Source: Rufibacter tibetensis
Lineage (GTDB): Bacteria; Bacteroidota; Bacteroidia; Cytophagales; Hymenobacteraceae
Direction of reading: 5' to 3'
Assembly: GCF_001310085.1 (NCBI RefSeq)
Contig: NZ_CP012643.1
Coordinates: 1,209,001-1,273,000, forward strand
Length of the DNA: 64,000 bases
Under the pieces are notes generated by a model. The model was given only the letters and a program-made list of their open reading frames with translations, made no database searches and had not been told where the DNA came from. Within the stretch, counting starts at the first letter, position 1. Every line of letters begins with the position of its first letter. Positions 598-58,650 of this stretch are shown here, piece after piece. The position numbers and the translations under genes are program-made.

Positions 598-621
598 ATT
601 TATTCAACCATACAAGATGAA

Positions 622-3600
622 TTACTTTTTCGTAGGCAATTCCTTCAGCAGCACTTCCACGGCTGTCTCCAACTGCTGGTCGCGGCCTTGGGCTACTACG
701 GCTGGATCATTGGCTACTAAATAATCTGGCTCCAATTGGGTGTTCTCCAGAAACTTGCCTCCGCCTAAAGTACGGTAGCCTACCTGCGGAATCCCGAAGA
801 CCATGGTAGGATCAATCATAGTTTCCCACCACACAAAAGTACCGGTTCCGGCTACGGGCATACCCACGGTTTTCCCAATTCCCAGTTCTTTGTACAGTAC
901 CGGGAAGATGTGCGCGTCTGAGTAGTTGCTTTCGTTCATGACCACAATAGACGGCTTTGTCCATTTGTTACGAGGCTCGTCTGACAGGTATTGTCCGCGC
1001 GGGATAAACTCGGCGTAGCGTTTGGTGTTCAGGAAACTGATGAGGTCATCGTGCAGGTTTCCGCCGCCGTTGGAGCGGGTGTCTACCACCAGTGCTTCTT
1101 TGGTGGCGTTCTTGCCCAAAGCCTCTTCGTAGACTGTGCGGTAACTGGCATCATTCATGCCCCTGATGTGCACGTAACCCAAGCGCCCACCCGATAAACG
1201 ATCCACTTCTTTGCGCCGGTTTTCAACCCAGCGCTGGTACATCAACTCACTCAACTCAGTTCCTGAGATAGGCTTCACAGTCTCTTCCCAGCGCTGCTTG
1301 GTTTTCTCGTTGTACAGAGAAACCAGCGTGTACTTACCTGATTTGCGGTTCAGGAGTTGGTCTACATCGGTGTTGTCTTCTATGGGCTGGCCATCAATTT
1401 TCTCAATGACAATACCTGATTTTACTTTGGAGCTGGCGCGGTCAAACGGACTCAGGTTGATGACCTCTTTTACTTTCAGGCCTTTTCCTGTGTATTGCTC
1501 GTCGTAAAACAAGCCCAAAGAAGCCGTAGCATCTGGATTAGTGGCACGATGGCTATAACGTCCGCCCGTGTGAGAGGCATTCAATTCACCCAATAACTCG
1601 CTCAGTACATCAGCAAAGTCATAGTTATTGGCAATGTGCGGCAGGAACTGGCGGTAGTTTTCAGTGTAGAATTTCCAGTCTACGTTGTGCAGGTCTTTCA
1701 CGTAGAATTTTTTCTCCAGCTGTCGGATCACGTGGTCATACATGTAGGCCCGCTCAGCAGCGGCGTTGAGGTTCATCTCGCCGTTCACTTTGAGCGTCTC
1801 CTGTTTCCCATTTTCGGTGTCTACTTTCAGGATTTTTCCTTCGGTTAAGACAAACAGGTTTTTGCCGTCTTTGCTCATGACCATGTCACCCCCGCGGGTA
1901 CCCAGTTTGGCCAGCAGTTTGGTGTCATTGTCGCGCAGGTTGGTTACCCATAAGTCATACCCTTTCTCAAAGCGGCTCAGGTAGAACATACGGTCGCCTT
2001 TGGCAGTCACCACGGCATCTGCCAGGTCCGAAGAAGTAGACGTAAGGCGTGCTTTCCGGTACTGCAGATTGTCCAGTTCCAGCTTCATTCCGGCAGGAGC
2101 ATTGTTTTTAGCGGACTGGCCTTTCTTCCCTCGGCCTTTTGGCTCAGGTTTATCAGACTGGGCAGCAGCTTCTGTTTCGCGTTTTTCCAGATCCTCCAAC
2201 AAGTTGAAATCTTCCTTGCTGAGCTTGAAGCGGTCAAAGGCATCTTGGGTGGTGAAGAGAGCGTAGATGTCACCCGTACCGGAGTTGTTACCATTGCCAC
2301 GCAAACCTTCGCGGTTAGAATAGTAGGTGATCATTTTGCCGCCCATCATCCATTGTGGACTGCGCTCGGCGTAGCCGCTCTGGCTCAGGTTGATGATTTC
2401 ACCCTTACCACTGGCCGAGATTAGACCTACTTCACTCAGCCATTGCTTGGGTTGGTTGAACTGCATCAAAAACCACTTGCCGTCTGGTGACCATTCATAG
2501 TATTGGTCGCCATCTGAATAAGAATAGTTATTGGCGTTGCCTAAGATGGTGCGGACCTGCTTGTCGGCTTTGTTCACCACTTTTAGGGTCACGCGCTCCT
2601 CCAGGTAAGCCACTTCTTTGCCATCAGGCGAATATGCCGGTTGAAACTCCTCCGCGGCGGTGGCGATTACCGGTTCTTCTTTCAACACCGTAGAGGCATA
2701 AAAGTAAGGCTCAGCGCTGCGCACCAGGCTGGTTTCATAGATGTTCCAGCTGCCGTTGCGCTCACTGGCGTACAAGATTTTGCGGCCATCGGGCGAGAAA
2801 CTCACGCTACGCTCCTGCTCGGGTGTGCTGGTGATACGGCGGGTAATGCCCCCTTCCACCGATGATACAAACACCTCTCCGCGATTCACAAACACCACTT
2901 CCTTGCCATTGGGCGAAACTTCCATTTCGGTCATGCCCCCGGAAATAGGCAACACGGTCTCTGGATTGGAGCGGATGTCTGAGTACAGCTGAATGGCTAC
3001 TTTCTGCGGCTGGGCACCGGCTTTGAGCGTGTAAATCTCGCCGTTATAGGTGAAAGACAACACCCCGTCTTTAGAACCGCTCAAATGCCGTACTGGATGT
3101 TTGGTGAAGTTGGTAACCGCGGCACTCTGCTTAGGATTCTGCAGACTTAGCTTACGCACATTGAACGTGCCATTAGGCTGCTCACTCAAGTAATATACTT
3201 CCTGCCCATTGGCCCCAAACACCGGCTGACGGTCTTCGCCTATGTTGTCGGTGAGTTTGGTGTGCTGCTTGGTTTTGGTATTATAGGTCCAGATATCGCG
3301 GGCAGAAGACGAGGTCTGGTGCTTTCTAAAATTGTTCTCCAAGCTCTTTTTGTCCTGGTAGATCAGCATATCACCGGAGGCATTGTACTTGGCCGCTTCA
3401 GCAGGCGTTGTCAGGAGCATGGCGTTGCGGCCGCCTCCAATGAATACACTATATAATTCAGAAAACGTACCTGAGGGGAACATAGCATTAGAAGCCGCGT
3501 CTACCCGTGCCGAAGAGAAGATCACGCTCTTTCCATCTGGCGTAAAATCTGAAGGCAAGTCAGGGGAAGAATGAAACGTAAGCCGTTTTGACTCTCCGCC

Positions 3601-51211: not shown

Positions 51212-52861
51212 ATGGCTACACCCAGATTCTACAAAGTGAGTGGCAATATCATTGACGTCCTGCACCAGGAGATCTACCCCGGCACCTTGGAGATCATGGA
51301 TGGCCAGATTGCCCGAGTCGTGCGGGAACCCGTGGCCGAAACACACTTTATTTTGCCGGGGTTCATTGACGCGCACGTGCACGTAGAGAGCTCCATGCTG
51401 GTGCCATCTGAGTTTGCCCGTTTAGCCGTACCCCACGGCACCGTGGCCACCGTCTCAGATCCGCATGAGATCGGGAATGTACTGGGTCTGAAAGGCGTGG
51501 AATACATGCTGGAGAACGGAAAGAAAGTACCTTTCAAATTCTTCTTCGGGGCTCCCTCCTGCGTACCGGCCACCCCGTTTGAAACGGCTGGCGCCGAGAT
51601 CACCCCGGAAGACATTGAGGAGCTTTTTCTTCGGCCCGAGGTGAAATACCTGGCCGAGATGATGAACTGGCCCGGCGTCTTGAACGGTGATGAGTTGGTA
51701 ATGCAGAAAATAACCCTAGCCCAGAAGTTCGACAAGCAGGTGGACGGCCATGCCCCCGGGTTGCGCGGCGAAGAAGCCCAGGCCTATGCCTCCGCCGGCA
51801 TGACTACTGACCATGAGTGCTTCACCGCTGAGGAAGCCAAAGACAAACTGGCTGCCGGTATGAAAATCCTGATCAGGGAAGGCAGCGCCGCCAAGAACTT
51901 TGAGGCACTGATTGAGTTGCTAACTGACCACCCATGTGAAATCATGTTCTGCTCTGATGACAAGCACCCCGATAACCTGGTAGAAGGCCACATCAATGAA
52001 CTGGTGAAGCGTGCCTTAGCCAAAGGCCATGACTTGTTTCATGTCCTTCAGGCCGCCTGCGTAAACGCGGTACACCACTACAAACTGGAAGTAGGCCTGC
52101 TGCAGGAAAAAGACCCCGCTGATTTCATTGTCATTGATAACCCAGAGAACTTCAACGTGCTTAAAACCTACATCAATGGGCAATTGGTGGCGGAAAACGG
52201 GAAGAGCAAAATTGCCTTCACCCCCAGTGAGATCATCAACAACTTTCACGCCCAGCCGAAGACCGTTGAACAGTTCCAGTTACCAGCCCAGGACGCGGTG
52301 AAGATACGAGTGATTGAACCGTATGATGGACAATTGATTACCGGTATGCTGTTTCTGGACCCTAAAATCAAGAACGGGTTTATTGTAAGCGATCCCAGGC
52401 AAGACGTCCTGAAAATCACTGTGGTAAACCGTTACCAAAACACGGAACCGGCTATCGCTTTCATCAAGAACTTCGGGCTGAAGCGTGGGGCCATTGCCTC
52501 CAGTGTGGGACATGACTCGCACAACATTATTGCCGTGGGCTGCGACGATGAAAGCCTGTGCCGGGCCGTCAACCTGCTCATTGATGCCAAAGGCGGAATC
52601 TCGGCAGTAGACGATCAAAGAGAGGAAGTGCTCCCGCTACCGGTAGCAGGTATTATGTCACCTGAAGACGGCTACTGGGTAGCGGAACAGTATGCTAAGC
52701 TAGACCAAGCCGCTAAAGACCTGGGCAGCACTCTTACCTCCCCGTTTATGACCTTGTCTTTTATGGCTCTTTTAGTGATTCCGGCCTTAAAACTGAGTGA
52801 TAAAGGCTTATTTGACGGACAGCACTTTCAGTTTGTAGACGTTACCAGCACCTTACTTTAA
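51212..52861 (+). CDS. ade: Adenine deaminase
   Basis: This 549-aa amidohydrolase converts adenine to hypoxanthine in purine salvage. Metal-site motifs are [48 protein letters not shown], the [10 protein letters not shown] stretch and [13 protein letters not shown] in the C-terminal ADE-type domain. Length matches the family. The start [11 protein letters not shown] is the first Met after the promoter gap and gives a usual N-terminus. It is divergent from the small lipoprotein-cmk unit. Together with purN and purH in the window it belongs to purine supply, but it is not linked to them. Confidence 0.96.
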
Positions 52862-53153: not shown

Positions 53154-53993
53154 TTGATAACGGAAATTCTTCTTTTTTTGGTGGGGATCATAATCAGCAC
53201 CTTTGGGACCTTGGTAGGTTTTGGAGGTGGGGTGTTTCTGGTGCCCGTCCTCATTATGTTTTTCCAGTTTCCAATTGAGTTGGCCATTGGGACGGCCATG
53301 ACGGCCCTGCTTCCGGCTGCTTTGGTTTCTTCCATCTTCAACTTCCGGGAAAAGAGCATTGATTATGTAGTTGCCTCTCTGCTGCAGTTTCCGGCTATGC
53401 TGGGTACGGTCATAGGGGCTTTTTTGGTAGCCTATACCCCCGTGCTGCAGATGCAGATTCTGTTTTCAATTTTTGTGACAGTGGTGGGTATCTACATGCT
53501 GGCTACCTACCAACACAAGCAGAATCGCCAACGCGGCATGATGTACCGCCTTAACCGGATGCCTACGTCTTTTATCAGAAAGAATCACCCCAAGCACCTG
53601 GCCTATAGATTGAACGGAGGATTGATGGCTTTCTTTGGGCTATGTACCGGCACCATCGCGGGACTCTTCGGGATTGGCGGGGGATTTCTGCAAACGCCCA
53701 TCATGATAAGGGCATTCAAGATACCGTCGCAGATTGCTATTTCCACTTCCCTGTTCATCCTGGTGGTAACCAGCCTTTCAGGGATTTCCTCACACTACTG
53801 GTTGGGCAACATTGACTGGACCAAGAGCATGCCGCTGATGCTGGCTTTCGCGCTTGGGGCCTTGCTGGGAAAAGCTATCAAAGGAAAAGATGCCACTACT
53901 TCCCAAAAGTCTTCTGAGAAACTTATAGGGATAGGATTGATGCTGGCAGGGATCAGTGTGATGATACACATTATCCTAAAATACCAGTTTTAG
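53154..53993 (+). CDS. TauE/SafE-family membrane permease
   Basis: This 279-aa protein has about eight hydrophobic helices in two halves. Each half carries the family motif: LVGFGGGVFLVPVLIMF near residue 25 and AGLFGIGGGFLQTPIMIRAF near 170. Members export sulfite, sulfoacetate or similar anions, or take up sulfur compounds. The substrate is open. The start is TTG 53154, since the first ATG lies beyond helix 1. Length fits the family (about 250-280). It is a single gene ended by a strong bidirectional hairpin. Confidence 0.92.
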   Translation: MITEILLFLVGIIISTFGTLVGFGGGVFLVPVLIMFFQFPIELAIGTAMTALLPAALVSSIFNFREKSIDYVVASLLQFPAMLGTVIGAFLVAYTPVLQMQILFSIFVTVVGIYMLATYQHKQNRQRGMMYRLNRMPTSFIRKNHPKHLAYRLNGGLMAFFGLCTGTIAGLFGIGGGFLQTPIMIRAFKIPSQIAISTSLFILVVTSLSGISSHYWLGNIDWTKSMPLMLAFALGALLGKAIKGKDATTSQKSSEKLIGIGLMLAGISVMIHIILKYQF

Positions 53994-54109: not shown

Positions 54110-54538
54110 CTACTCTGCGTTATCCTTGAAATGAGCATCCAGCAGGTCCTGCACTTTCTGAGTCGTAAGCGGTTTGGTAAGATAGGTGATGTGACTGGCA
54201 GCCGCCCGCGCTGTGTCTTGGTTATGCTCTGAAGTGGTCAACAGTGCCAGGACTACATCTTTCCGGAAAGACTCGCTTAGTTTCTCAAACAGCGCTAGGA
54301 ACTCAAACCCATCCATCACGGGCATGTTAATGTCCAGGAGAATAAGCGAGGGTTTGAAGTATTCGCCCGTAAGCTCTGCATGCCCCTCACTAATAGAGTA
54401 GAGATAGTCAAAAGCCTGCTTCCCGTTGCGGAACTCCCTAATCTTGTCTGTGATCTGCATCCGGTTCAGCAAGCGGTGGTTCAGGAAGTTATTGGTGTCG
54501 TCGTCGTCAATAAGTAAGATGCCCTTTAGTTTTTTCAT
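54110..54538 (-). CDS. Single-domain response regulator
   Basis: This 142-aa receiver domain has the acidic pocket in LLIDDDDTNN (Asp11-Asp14) and phospho-acceptor Asp69 in LILLDINMPVMDGFEF. The switch residues are in ALLTTSE and the conserved Lys is in YLTKPLT. There is no output domain, as in CheY- or Spo0F-type proteins. It overlaps the histidine-kinase gene by 4 nt (ATGA), so the two are translated together. Such single-domain regulators commonly follow hybrid-like or phytochrome-type kinases in Bacteroidota. The oddity is in its partner kinase, which lacks the usual His. Confidence 0.93.
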   Translation of the reverse strand: MKKLKGILLIDDDDTNNFLNHRLLNRMQITDKIREFRNGKQAFDYLYSISEGHAELTGEYFKPSLILLDINMPVMDGFEFLALFEKLSESFRKDVVLALLTTSEHNQDTARAAASHITYLTKPLTTQKVQDLLDAHFKDNAE

Positions 54539-55806
54539 ACCCGTTTTCCGGTGTCTTGGTCATGGTTAACAAAATACAACAGAAAAGTAGTGCCCTCCCC
54601 CAATACGCTCTGCACCTCCACTTTTCCACGGTTGTTATCCATGATGCGTTTAATAATATAAAGTCCTACGCCGCTGCCTTCTACGTGGTCATGAAACCTA
54701 CGGAAAAGAGAAAACAGATGCTGTCCATATTGACTTAGATCCATTCCCATGCCGTTGTCTTTCACCTCCAACACCAGGTACTGGTCCTGTAACCGGGTAG
54801 TGAGGGAGATCTGCAACGTCCGTTGAGGATCGCGGTATTTGATTGAATTTGAAAGCAGGTTCCTGAGCAGGCTGTACAGGTTGTCTCTGGAAAAGAAGAC
54901 CTCCGGCGCCGCCGAAAAGTCTGCCTGTATTTTGGCGTCTGATTCCCGTATGCTTTGGGCCAACGTGGCTTGCACCTGCTCCAACACGGCCTGAAAAGAA
55001 AGCTTTTTCAGGTCGACCTCCTCCACGGGCTTTTGGATGCGGCTTACTTCAGCCAGGTTGTTCAGCTTCCGGTGAATGCTGGAAACCGAATCATCCAGGC
55101 GGGTGAACAACTGGGTAAGCTCTGGGTTGTTGGGCGGCAGTTCTTCCCTGATGGCGTCCACCAAACCCGATACGTTTAAGACTGGCCCCTTTAAATCTCT
55201 TGAAGCATAGTAGACAAAGTCATCCAAGTCTGCGTTCTTCTTGATTAGCTCGTAGTTTTTAGAAATCAGCTGTTTTTCAGCGCGTTTCCGGTTTTCTATT
55301 TCGCGCTCCAGTTCTCTATTGGCGGTAATGGCCTGGGCACTGCGTTTCTGCACCCGGTCCTCTAACTCCTGCTGGGTTTCACGCAGGGCGGCTTCGGCTT
55401 TCTCGCGTTCCTCTATCTGTGCCCGCAGGTCTATGTTGGTCCTTTTGAGTTGCTTTTCGCTTGGGATTGCCAGCAACCCAGGAATGGCCCTGAACAACAG
55501 ATAAGCTGCTATCAACGCTGCCACGCCAAACACCAACCTGAGGATCAATAAAAAATTCCCCTGGGAAGCAGTCTCCCAGAATTCTAGCAGGTGTACGGCC
55601 CCGCCCATCAAAGCAATAGTCCCGAAGAGCGCCAGCACCACCCTTCTTTCACGGTCGTCACGTTTTAAGGCCAGGTAAAATAAAACACCCGCCACCAGCA
55701 AATAGGCCGTAACCACAAACAACTCACCTACCAGCACCAAACCGTCTGGCCCTGAGCCCGCCGGGGTACCTGCATTCACACTGGAAGAGATTTGAAAGAG
55801 AAGCAC
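54535..55806 (-). CDS. Sensor kinase with ethylene-receptor-like membrane domain and altered H-box
   Basis: This 423-aa protein has three membrane helices (about 22-48, 55-78 and 84-110), a coiled coil (about 115-190), a dimerisation region and an HATPase domain (about 300-412). The N-box LLRNLLSNSIKY, G1 VKDNGMGMD and G2 EGSGVGLYI look intact. The usual phospho-acceptor motif ASHDLK reads ASRDLKG, so Arg203 replaces His. The membrane part aligns by eye without gaps to plant ETR1 (recalled sequence): Tyr35 and His72 match, but the copper-ligand Cys is Gly68 and the key Asp is Glu28. It may be a non-autophosphorylating scaffold or use another mechanism. It is coupled to a response regulator. 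Confidence 0.85.
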   Translation of the reverse strand: MLLFQISSSVNAGTPAGSGPDGLVLVGELFVVTAYLLVAGVLFYLALKRDDRERRVVLALFGTIALMGGAVHLLEFWETASQGNFLLILRLVFGVAALIAAYLLFRAIPGLLAIPSEKQLKRTNIDLRAQIEEREKAEAALRETQQELEDRVQKRSAQAITANRELEREIENRKRAEKQLISKNYELIKKNADLDDFVYYASRDLKGPVLNVSGLVDAIREELPPNNPELTQLFTRLDDSVSSIHRKLNNLAEVSRIQKPVEEVDLKKLSFQAVLEQVQATLAQSIRESDAKIQADFSAAPEVFFSRDNLYSLLRNLLSNSIKYRDPQRTLQISLTTRLQDQYLVLEVKDNGMGMDLSQYGQHLFSLFRRFHDHVEGSGVGLYIIKRIMDNNRGKVEVQSVLGEGTTFLLYFVNHDQDTGKRV

Positions 55807-55996: not shown

Positions 55997-56977
55997 TTAG
56001 TCAATATAGCCTTGTGCCCGCATCCAGTCATCATTGTAGATTTTAGCCAGGTAACGGGTACCATGGTCTGGCAGTACCACTACCAACACATCATCCTCGG
56101 TTAAGTGCTCACGAGCATATTCCAAGGCACCATGTACCGCCGAACCGCAAGACCAACCCACAAACAACCCTTCTTCTTTGGCCAAGCGGCGGGTCATCAA
56201 TGCTCCGTCTTTATCGGTTACTTTAATGAAAGTGTCAATCAGGTCAAAGTTCACGTTCTTGGGCAGGATGTCCTCGCCAATACCTTCAGTGGCATACGGG
56301 TAGATTTCCTCTTCGTCAAAGATGCCGGTCTCCTTGTATTTCTTGAACACGGAGCCGTAGGTGTCAATGCCTACTACTTTGATACCAGCATTCTGCTCTT
56401 TCAGGAATTTGGAGATACCGCAGATGGTACCGCCCGTTCCTACGCCCGAAGCAAAGCAGGTGATTTTTCCATCGGCCTGTCTCCAAATCTCGGGGCCGCT
56501 GGTGTCATAGTGCGCCGCAGTGTTGGAAAGGTTATCGTACTGGTTTGGGTAAAATGAGTTGGTAATCTCCTGGTTCAGACGCTTGGCGACAGAATAGTAA
56601 GAATCTGGGTGCTCAGGCGCCACATTGGTAGGGCAAACCACTACCTCGGCTCCAACTGCCTTCAAAATGTTTATCTTCTCAGGGCTCTGCTTGTCAGACA
56701 TGGTGAAGATACACTTATAACCTTTGGCAATAGCGGCCAAGGCCAATCCCATGCCCGTGTTACCAGAGGTTCCTTCAATGATGGTTCCGCCTGGCTTCAG
56801 GATTCCCGCCTTCTCGGCGTCTTCCACCATGCGCAGGGCCATGCGGTCTTTCACTGAGTTGCCTGGGTTGAAATACTCTACTTTCGCTAACACAGTGGCT
56901 TTTACTCCATCTGTGACGCTGTTCAGCTTCACCAGTGGCGTGTTACCAATGGCCTCTATAACATTATTGAAATACAT
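55997..56977 (-). CDS. PLP-dependent cysteine synthase / cystathionine beta-synthase
   Basis: This 326-aa fold-type II enzyme has the PLP-lysine motif NPGNSVKDRMA (Lys about 43), the substrate loop EGTSGNTGMGLAL (about 70) and the phosphate loop SGVGTGGTICG (about 177). It lacks the C-terminal CBS pair of the human enzyme. The VVVLPDHGTRYLAKIYND end is more like cystathionine beta-synthase than CysK, but the sequence alone does not decide between O-acetylserine and serine plus homocysteine as substrate. If it is a CBS, it would draw on homocysteine, which MetH also uses. A TTACCTTTG promoter box precedes it. Confidence 0.88.
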   Translation of the reverse strand: MYFNNVIEAIGNTPLVKLNSVTDGVKATVLAKVEYFNPGNSVKDRMALRMVEDAEKAGILKPGGTIIEGTSGNTGMGLALAAIAKGYKCIFTMSDKQSPEKINILKAVGAEVVVCPTNVAPEHPDSYYSVAKRLNQEITNSFYPNQYDNLSNTAAHYDTSGPEIWRQADGKITCFASGVGTGGTICGISKFLKEQNAGIKVVGIDTYGSVFKKYKETGIFDEEEIYPYATEGIGEDILPKNVNFDLIDTFIKVTDKDGALMTRRLAKEEGLFVGWSCGSAVHGALEYAREHLTEDDVLVVVLPDHGTRYLAKIYNDDWMRAQGYID

Positions 56978-57837: not shown

Positions 57838-58650
57838 TTAGTTCTCCAGTTTTATTTTAGTGTCACCAGACTTGTACTTCACCTCGTCTTTCTCACGTTT
57901 CAGTTTGGCGTCGTCGGTTTTGATTTTAGTCTCATTTGGCTCTTTCTTCACCTTGAGGTTATCTGTCTTCAGTTTAGACTCAGCGCCTTCTCTTTTTATT
58001 TTGATGTTGTCTGTTTTCACTTTAGACTCGTCTCCTTCTACTTTCAGTTTGGAGCCATCCTGGGTCTTATATTTAGTTTCACCGCTGTAGTATTTCTGAC
58101 GGTTAGCCTCATACATTTTAAACTGCTCAGGAGTTAAGAAGCCTTTTACTTCCATGTCAACATTTGAGTTGATAGACTCCATTTCGCTGTAATACTGGGT
58201 AGGATAATCTTCTGGGTAGCCAGATACTTGCATAGATGAACTCTGCACGGCCATGCCGCTATCCATCATGTTATCTTCCTCTACCATCACGTCTTTGCTC
58301 ATGGTGCTTTCGCTATCAGCGGCCATACCAGCACTCTGGTTCGTGCTGCTGTAACGGGTCTCCAGCTCATTCATCATGCGGGCCCTGTTGTACATCACTG
58401 TACGAATGCGGGCCTGCGTAGCCTCATCTAACCTCAAATCCTGTGAAATCCGGGAAGACATACGATTGGCTCTTTCCCGTGACTCTTGCTCATAGTTGTA
58501 AACGGTGGAAGAATCATTGGTCTCGCCAGACGCACTATCTGGGGTGCTGCTGTCGTTTTCGTTGGTTTCTGTTGAAGTACCAGCATCTTCGCGGCAAGCA
58601 GAGAAAGCCAAAGCTCCTGCTACCATAAACATCAACATATGCTTTTTCAT
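57838..58650 (-). CDS. Lipoprotein with C-terminal 16-residue lysine-rich repeats
   Basis: This 270-aa protein has a lipobox at AFSAC (Cys19), a low-complexity Ser/Thr/Asn-rich spacer and a helical middle (about 50-185) with LRLDEATQARIRTV, similar in pattern to CpxP/Spy-like helical proteins. Residues 189-270 are five tandem repeats of 16-17 aa, such as GDESKVKTDNIKIKRE and GAESKLKTDNLKVKKE, with Lys at alternate positions. This points to beta strands with one basic face. No family is recognised. The repeat tail could bind anionic polymers such as LPS, DNA or polyphosphate. That is a guess. Confidence 0.8.
   Translation of the reverse strand: MKKHMLMFMVAGALAFSACREDAGTSTETNENDSSTPDSASGETNDSSTVYNYEQESRERANRMSSRISQDLRLDEATQARIRTVMYNRARMMNELETRYSSTNQSAGMAADSESTMSKDVMVEEDNMMDSGMAVQSSSMQVSGYPEDYPTQYYSEMESINSNVDMEVKGFLTPEQFKMYEANRQKYYSGETKYKTQDGSKLKVEGDESKVKTDNIKIKREGAESKLKTDNLKVKKEPNETKIKTDDAKLKREKDEVKYKSGDTKIKLEN

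Follow-up and report, generated by a model that had tools for sequence, protein, structure and literature searches.

Can a bacterial protein with a membrane domain like that of the plant ethylene receptor ETR1 still act as an ethylene receptor once the copper-binding Cys of that domain has gone? The question is raised by a gene in the window, i.e., the whole 64,000-nucleotide stretch of Rufibacter tibetensis DNA analysed here, in which an earlier note had described an ethylene-receptor-like sensor domain without its copper-ligand Cys. Because the same protein has also lost the phospho-accepting His of its kinase part, a change that the note had overlooked, the question shifts from what is sensed to how signalling happens. 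The features of the locus are collected in Table 1; by the coordinates of the reading frames, the stop of the kinase gene and the start of the regulator gene overlap by 4 bases.

Table 1. Position in the window of the receptor-kinase gene, its partner, diagnostic residues and neighbouring genes
Feature	Coordinates	Strand	Remarks
ETR1_N–coil–DHp–CA receptor kinase	54535..55806	-	423 aa, GTG start; ORF call, Pfam and synteny
ETR1_N (ethylene-binding-type) domain, aa 25–114	55465..55734	-	PF25487, 43.3 bits; three AlphaFold2 helices
Glu28, equivalent to ETR1 Asp25	55723..55725	-	13 Glu and 2 Asp among the 15 copies
Gly68, replacing copper ligand Cys65	55603..55605	-	14 Gly and 1 Ala among the 15 copies
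His72, equivalent to ETR1 His69, copper ligand	55591..55593	-	15/15 copies
Arg90, equivalent to ETR1 Lys91	55537..55539	-	12 Arg and 3 Lys among the 15 copies
DHp (HisKA-type) domain, aa 191–262	55021..55236	-	HisKA, 26.1 bits, slightly below the cut-off of 26.9
Arg203, codon AGA, replacing the phospho-accepting His	55198..55200	-	R in 15/15 copies
CA (HATPase_c) domain, aa 290–412	54571..54939	-	PF02518, 67 bits; ATP-binding residues intact
Single-domain response regulator, 142 aa	54110..54538	-	PF00072, 51.6 bits; ATG overlaps the kinase stop
Regulator Asp69, expected phospho-acceptor	54332..54334	-	Kept in 15/15 copies; conserved LLDINMP motif
PALP-family enzyme, upstream synteny anchor	55997..56977	-	PF00291
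TauE/SafE-family permease, synteny anchor	53154..53993	+	PF01925
Adenine-deaminase-like protein, synteny anchor	51212..52861	+	PF13382, PF01979

The Membrane Domain

By its profile match, the receptor kinase is a member of the ETR1_N sequence family: residues 25–114 match the Pfam-A profile PF25487 with an E-value of 4.5e-11 and 43.3 bits against a curated cut-off of 27, and all 15 copies found in the genus score above this cut-off. The ETR1 N-terminus used for comparison scores 116.5 bits on PF25487, so its letters are usable. The ungapped comparison of residues 26–77 with it (offset −3) gives 16 identities in 52 positions, against 14 at best in 2000 shuffles at any offset, and BLASTP of the whole membrane region against the same sequence gives 25 identities in 118 positions (E = 8e-10, for a single comparison). 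A profile built from 12 Cys-bearing relatives scores the real protein at 46.6 bits and the best of 2000 shuffles at 11.0. A chance or low-complexity resemblance between transmembrane segments is ruled out by the Pfam score and both shuffle controls. The gap-free 52-residue alignment that the earlier note had drawn with ETR1 is thus correct, each of its residue pairs (E28=D25, Y35=Y32, A39=P36, G68=C65 and H72=H69) is right, and neither of the two checks it had named, a search with the ethylene-binding-domain HMM and the order of helices in an AlphaFold model, speaks against it.

The AlphaFold2 model (11 sequences; mean pLDDT 70.6, pTM 0.44) reproduces the helix order of the ETR1_N domain, with helices at residues 21–48, 52–77 and 80–112 followed by a long coil helix at 117–190, and with a block-mean pLDDT of 64–83 over residues 21–120. 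Since pLDDT is below 50 for residues 181–210, we make no structural statement around the H-box. By their names, the best 50 of 556 Foldseek matches are all histidine kinases or complexes that contain one, and among these 50, DivL (structure 4q20) appears at ranks 15 and 20, a likeness that concerns the kinase part. Searching the PDB by sequence for an ETR1_N structure yielded none, the one match being a synthetic protein at E 0.19; a 2026 review likewise states that the membrane domain of ETR1 still lacks an experimental structure at high resolution (PMC13012798).

Five of the seven ethylene-binding residues were checked (Asp25, Tyr32, Pro36, Cys65 and His69). His72 and an acid at position 28 are present in every copy of the genus, Tyr35 (ETR1 Tyr32) is retained in 14 of the 15, and the Pro of ETR1 position 36 is gone from all 15 (position 39 is Ala in 14 and Ser in one). 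The domain lacks its copper-ligand Cys, as had been claimed, and the same is true of all 15 genus copies. The N-terminal Cys, present in 88 of 102 other rows, aligned in none of the 15. Held against the residues tested for a copper-dependent ethylene receptor, the protein fails at two, Cys65 and Pro36, both of which are replaced.

Cys mutants of ETR1 and the matching mutant of SynEtr1 are reported to have lost ethylene binding (PMC11819568), and because of this, ETR1-like copper–ethylene binding is expected to be lost in the Rufibacter protein. According to the same report, Cys or Asp mutants of AzoEtr1 left biofilm formation unrescued, with caveats of the authors about their two-plasmid system; comparable SynEtr1 mutants are given as non-functional, and comparable plant mutants as continuing to signal in a way that ethylene cannot switch off (PMC11819568). 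The role proposed for Asp25 is to hold His69 in place and to form a pair with a helix-3 lysine (PMC11819568, PMC13012798). In Rufibacter these three positions are kept in kind and the thiol is dropped, so that the residues of the switch may have outlasted the metal. It is possible that the membrane domain senses something other than ethylene, and it may equally serve for dimerisation and as a membrane anchor.

The Kinase Domains and the Partner Regulator

In the H-box stretch, FVYYASRDLKGP (core YASRDLKGP), position 203 is Arg where histidine kinases have the phospho-accepting His. A misplaced H-box is ruled out, the SRD of the protein aligning with the SHD of the PDB kinase 8f71 and of 186 His-bearing rows. 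Those 186 rows were picked for having His, so that 186/186 is true by construction; in a set not selected for it, His occupies the position in all 97 aligned kinases without ETR1_N, and two further kinases of this set did not align. At this residue the receptor kinase fails the canonical HisKA requirement of a phospho-accepting His.

The other conserved positions of the kinase part are mostly kept. The 186 His-bearing rows define 24 kinase columns with a conservation of at least 90%; at 21 of these no copy of the genus deviates, position 203 alone is replaced in all 15, and positions 205 and 316 vary in a minority: L205 is I in two copies, and N316, conserved in 184 of the 186 comparison rows, is His in four. 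Asp204, which adjoins the acceptor position, is kept in 13 of 13 aligned copies, and all 15 copies have the ATP-binding residues N320, D350, G352, G354, G379 and G381. DHp carries four more replacements, N196D, T247K, I248L and D250N, which are common to the 15 copies and set them apart from most of 11 orthologues of the same family (L248 occurs in 16 and N250 in 27 of the 186 His-bearing rows); the helix bundle may thus have been rebuilt around Arg203.

The gene of the single-domain response regulator lies downstream of the kinase gene in all 15 genus copies. We take Asp69 to be its phospho-acceptor from the conserved LLDINMP motif, and the acidic pocket, the Asp, the T/S and the Lys residues of the regulator are kept in 15 of 15.

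The Locus and Its Orthologues

The metallophosphoesterase, 270-aa protein, CarboxypepD_reg, PALP, kinase and regulator genes are at the locus in all 10 relatives compared, and the TauE permease and deaminase genes in nine each, both being missing within the 4 kb flank of the Sabulibacter locus L068. The 270-aa protein (57838–58650, minus strand) has no Pfam match at E 1e-5, and its C-terminal third is, by eye, a degenerate Lys/Asp-rich repeat of the KxKTD type. In several genera, the receptor pair lies between the TauE/SafE gene and the gene of the PALP-family enzyme, which is cysteine-synthase-like. A link to sulfur through these neighbours is conceivable, and the arrangement may be mere synteny.

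Eight Cys-bearing kinases of three other genera (L013 of g2; L004, L009 and L012 of g3; L014–L017 of g4) occupy the same locus in the same kinase–regulator order. The PALP gene precedes and the regulator gene follows the kinase in all eight, loci that were chosen for a regulator already seen there; the TauE gene is found in five and the deaminase gene in six of them. Over about 390 aa, the Rufibacter kinase is 40–48% identical to these proteins, which, unlike it, keep the Cys and, except L013 with its Asn, the His. Because the locus is shared, the Rufibacter protein is to be seen as a changed orthologue and not an unrelated look-alike; by gene order it is the positional orthologue of the Cys-bearing ETR1_N kinases in these three genera. 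The g3 loci L005, L007 and L008 showed no regulator in the short stretch examined.

The sixteenth genome of the genus (G054) has PALP and TauE matches 336 bases apart (L248, 7066–7403), and both kinase and regulator are absent between these two genes. Since the two are missing together, they were lost as a unit.

Distribution of the Double Change

The ETR1_N gene is present, in one copy each, in 15 of the 16 genomes of the genus, ten of these copies comprising nine from Rufibacter and one from Sabulibacter ruber, and the double change, i.e., no Cys together with Arg203, is found in all 15. A sequencing artefact or a pseudogene is ruled out, the changed residues being shared by 15 genomes and seen in ten of them in separate records. 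In samples that overlap and include the genus, the domain was detected in 17 of 134 genomes of the family (counted outside the genus, best copies 100–127 bits), in 58 of 291 genomes of the order (57 above the cut-off) and in 21 of 395 genomes of the phylum. The 14 control genomes gave no ETR1_N match. Every matched place was inspected, and two sub-threshold matches (one in G155 and the second match of G270) were found by a purpose-built profile to contain no domain.

Outside the genus, 98 of 106 distinct Bacteroidota ETR1_N genes carry the Cys and eight do not; the broken gene L196 gave two rows and is counted once, and all such counts are of distinct sequences, not of independent events. The H-box could be read with the profile in 92 of the 106 and has His in 91 and Asn in one (L013), the other 14 being unread because the sequence stretch ended, the domain was absent or the profile fell short. 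Among the Bacteroidota genes sampled, the combined loss of Cys and His is seen in this genus only. Outside the genus, the H-box could be read in five Cys-less relatives, all of which have His, and L013 combines Cys with Asn, so either loss occurs alone elsewhere; the same six genes contradict a general rule by which loss of the Cys would force loss of the His or the reverse.

The eight Cys-less loci are L187, L188, L189, L191 and L196 (family f15, genus g68), L193 (f15, g89), L192 (f5, g56) and L186 (f54). The Cys is replaced in them by T, S, I, F, V or N, and in five of seven genomes the Cys-less domain is an extra copy beside a Cys-bearing one. In L196 (genome G325), the ETR1_N gene is split into two frames.

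A profile of the Rufibacter-type domain (A3) matched 39 of the 291 genomes of the order and revealed no second lineage: its best score outside the genus was 76 bits, against 184–197 bits within it, and one weak match (G278) reached 20.6 bits. We built a tree from 75 of 205 rows, namely the family's ETR1_N kinases, 25 other domain-bearing rows that passed the H-box filter and the first 20 rows without the domain. In it, the 15 Rufibacter copies form one clade with an SH-aLRT of 100, and from this the double loss is probably of single origin. L013 falls in the same 26-row clade (SH-aLRT 90, drawn open), with no resolution against the Rufibacter copies.

In L013 (genome G007, genus g2; 598–1878, minus strand), the copper Cys is present (CGATH), as are the remaining ligand-site residues that we checked. 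Its H-box, ASNDLKAP, has Asn for His, and a regulator gene adjoins. Here a kinase without the His is joined to a sensor that appears competent for ethylene.

Selection and Divergence

In each of five close pairs (of 105 pairs in all), the DHp domain has the lowest dN/dS, 0.04–0.06, followed by values of 0.05–0.11 for CA, 0.06–0.11 for the regulator and 0.08–0.32 for the membrane domain; these figures are rough, as pS is 0.35–0.81 with many synonymous changes and one value for the coil was not computable. Across all 105 pairs, where synonymous sites are near saturation, pN/pS is 0.18 for DHp, 0.22 for the regulator, 0.26 for CA, 0.33 for the coil and 0.45 for the membrane domain. Purifying selection thus maintains DHp, the ATP-binding site and the partner regulator, and with them His72, the acid at position 28 and the base at position 90. 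The faster evolution of the membrane domain means that a specific ligand is not implied.

The proteins of 10 relatives are identical to those of the window at 61–79% of positions for the kinase and 70–81% for the regulator, compared with 81–97% for PALP, deaminase and metallophosphoesterase and 56–88% for TauE, CarboxypepD_reg and the 270-aa protein. These figures bear on whether kinase and regulator are what is left of an ethylene receptor, in decay or nearly neutral. In favour of this are the loss of two functional residues, the absence of both genes from one genome and a kinase less conserved than the three most similar neighbours. However, the divergence of the kinase resembles that of the other three and of the regulator, none of the 15 copies has a broken reading frame, the locus is fixed, and all dN/dS values that could be computed by domain for the five close pairs lie far below 1. 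The ATP-binding residues are intact as well, DHp without its His has the lowest dN/dS, and the overlapping regulator gene retains its phospho-site. The receptor kinase does not look like a decaying gene, and decay, already disfavoured by these data, is in our view improbable.

Discussion

The double loss of Cys and His is a fact of the sequence, and from it we infer the function. The reading that we place first, and in which our confidence is evenly balanced, is that the protein would be a pseudo-histidine-kinase anchored in the membrane, which has ceased to sense ethylene and controls its regulator without passing on a phosphate of its own. It would neither bind copper and ethylene as ETR1 does nor autophosphorylate on His, and would act as an ATP-binding dimer at the membrane, in which the conformation of DHp–CA follows the movements of the three-helix membrane domain. 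The DHp domain of a histidine kinase is the docking surface for the response regulator. In the Rufibacter protein, DHp would dock the partner regulator and, by its conformational state, shield, hold or release it, and any phosphate on the regulator would come from another kinase or from a small phosphodonor. We rank this docking pseudokinase first because DHp is the best preserved domain and because DivL of Caulobacter shows such a mode. What keeps our confidence at that level is the ATP site: it has been preserved as well, and this speaks for the rivals that need catalysis. The strict retention of this site counts against pure docking, since DivL is reported to bind an ATP analogue weakly (PMC4211667), and a second point against this reading is that, among the 17 loci examined in other genera of the family, the regulator was seen after the kinase in 8, the same eight as above.

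DivL is described as a HisKA fold in which the His is replaced and whose partner is the regulator DivK; the description gives it no kinase or phosphatase activity and a lengthened half-life of DivK~P (PMC4211667). The Rufibacter kinase shares with it the replaced His in a kept fold, although our model is weak at the H-box. DivL has Tyr, PAS sensors and weak binding of the ATP analogue according to that work (PMC4211667), whereas the Rufibacter protein combines Arg and an ETR1_N membrane domain with ATP-binding motifs that are intact. Orthology with DivL is ruled out, position 203 being Arg and not Tyr and no PAS domain being among the Pfam matches listed with an E-value of 1 or less. SynEtr1 of Synechocystis and AzoEtr1–AzoRR of Azospirillum are likewise described as two-component receptors with an ETR1-type membrane domain, and the response regulator gene of AzoEtr1 adjoins with overlapping ends, as in the Rufibacter pair; AzoEtr1, however, is reported to retain the seven ethylene-binding amino acids (PMC11819568), whereas the Rufibacter protein is without the Cys, the Pro and the kinase His. 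The plant receptors of subfamily 2 (ETR2, ERS2 and EIN4) also join a receptor-type membrane domain to a diverged His-kinase domain without essential residues, and are described as Ser/Thr kinases (PMC3611092). The Rufibacter protein, by contrast, has intact ATP-site motifs and lacks the copper ligand. Subfamily 2 receptors still bind ethylene. The Rufibacter protein appears to work most like a pseudo-histidine-kinase, in this case one built on an ethylene receptor; our searches of open-licence papers listed no report of the protein.

Two other readings would put the preserved ATP site to use. The CA domain could phosphorylate the His of a partner kinase in a heterodimer, the partner serving the regulator while the Rufibacter protein supplies membrane input and catalysis. 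This agrees with the loss, in all 15 copies, of the acceptor while the ATP-binding residues are kept. There are 46 kinase-like matches to the full-length kinase profile in the source genome, and other kinases of Rufibacter genomes are 36–43% identical over DHp–CA. In Corynebacterium, the dead kinase ChrS is reported to heterodimerise with HrrS, although CA and not the His is lost there (PMC9491836). Against such a heterodimer, we found no second ETR1_N protein in the source genome. DHp dimers of related kinases, moreover, are usually specific, and on balance we hold trans-phosphorylation to be unlikely, while granting it some weight. Alternatively, CA could phosphorylate Arg203 itself through a P–N bond like that of phosphohistidine, and the phosphate would pass to the regulator Asp. 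The Arg is invariant in 15 copies and not drifting; Asp204, the nucleotide-binding motifs and the phospho-site of the regulator are all kept, and protein arginine kinases and guanidino kinases exist. Guanidinium, however, is a poor nucleophile, N316 with its high conservation elsewhere is His in four copies, we know of no histidine-kinase fold that uses Arg as phospho-acceptor, and a search of open-licence papers yielded none on a histidine kinase with phosphoarginine as acceptor. Phosphorylation of Arg203 therefore seems to us very doubtful, and its extension to a phosphoarginine two-component system whose copper-free sensor switches via Glu28, His72 and Arg90 would be more doubtful still.

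On the input side, the membrane domain might still bind Cu(I) or ethylene through His72 and Glu28, as a low-affinity receptor. The invariance of His72 and of the acid at position 28 is what one would expect of it, but the binding lost in the Cys65 mutants of ETR1 and in their SynEtr1 counterpart, together with the replaced Pro36 and the N-terminal Cys motif absent from all 15 copies, makes us think residual binding highly improbable.

The finding is real, well conserved and more unusual than first described. That the gene and its partner are kept in nearly all of the genus in spite of both losses points to a receptor remade for another task. Nature here offers a double mutant of a bacterial ethylene-receptor-type kinase, in which the input ligand and the output acceptor are replaced and most else is kept, at a fixed locus and with Cys-bearing orthologues available for comparison. 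A lineage that has lost the Cys and yet been retained can show which role the membrane domain has independently of ethylene, and it can also show by what route a kinase without its His communicates with a regulator that has kept its phospho-site.
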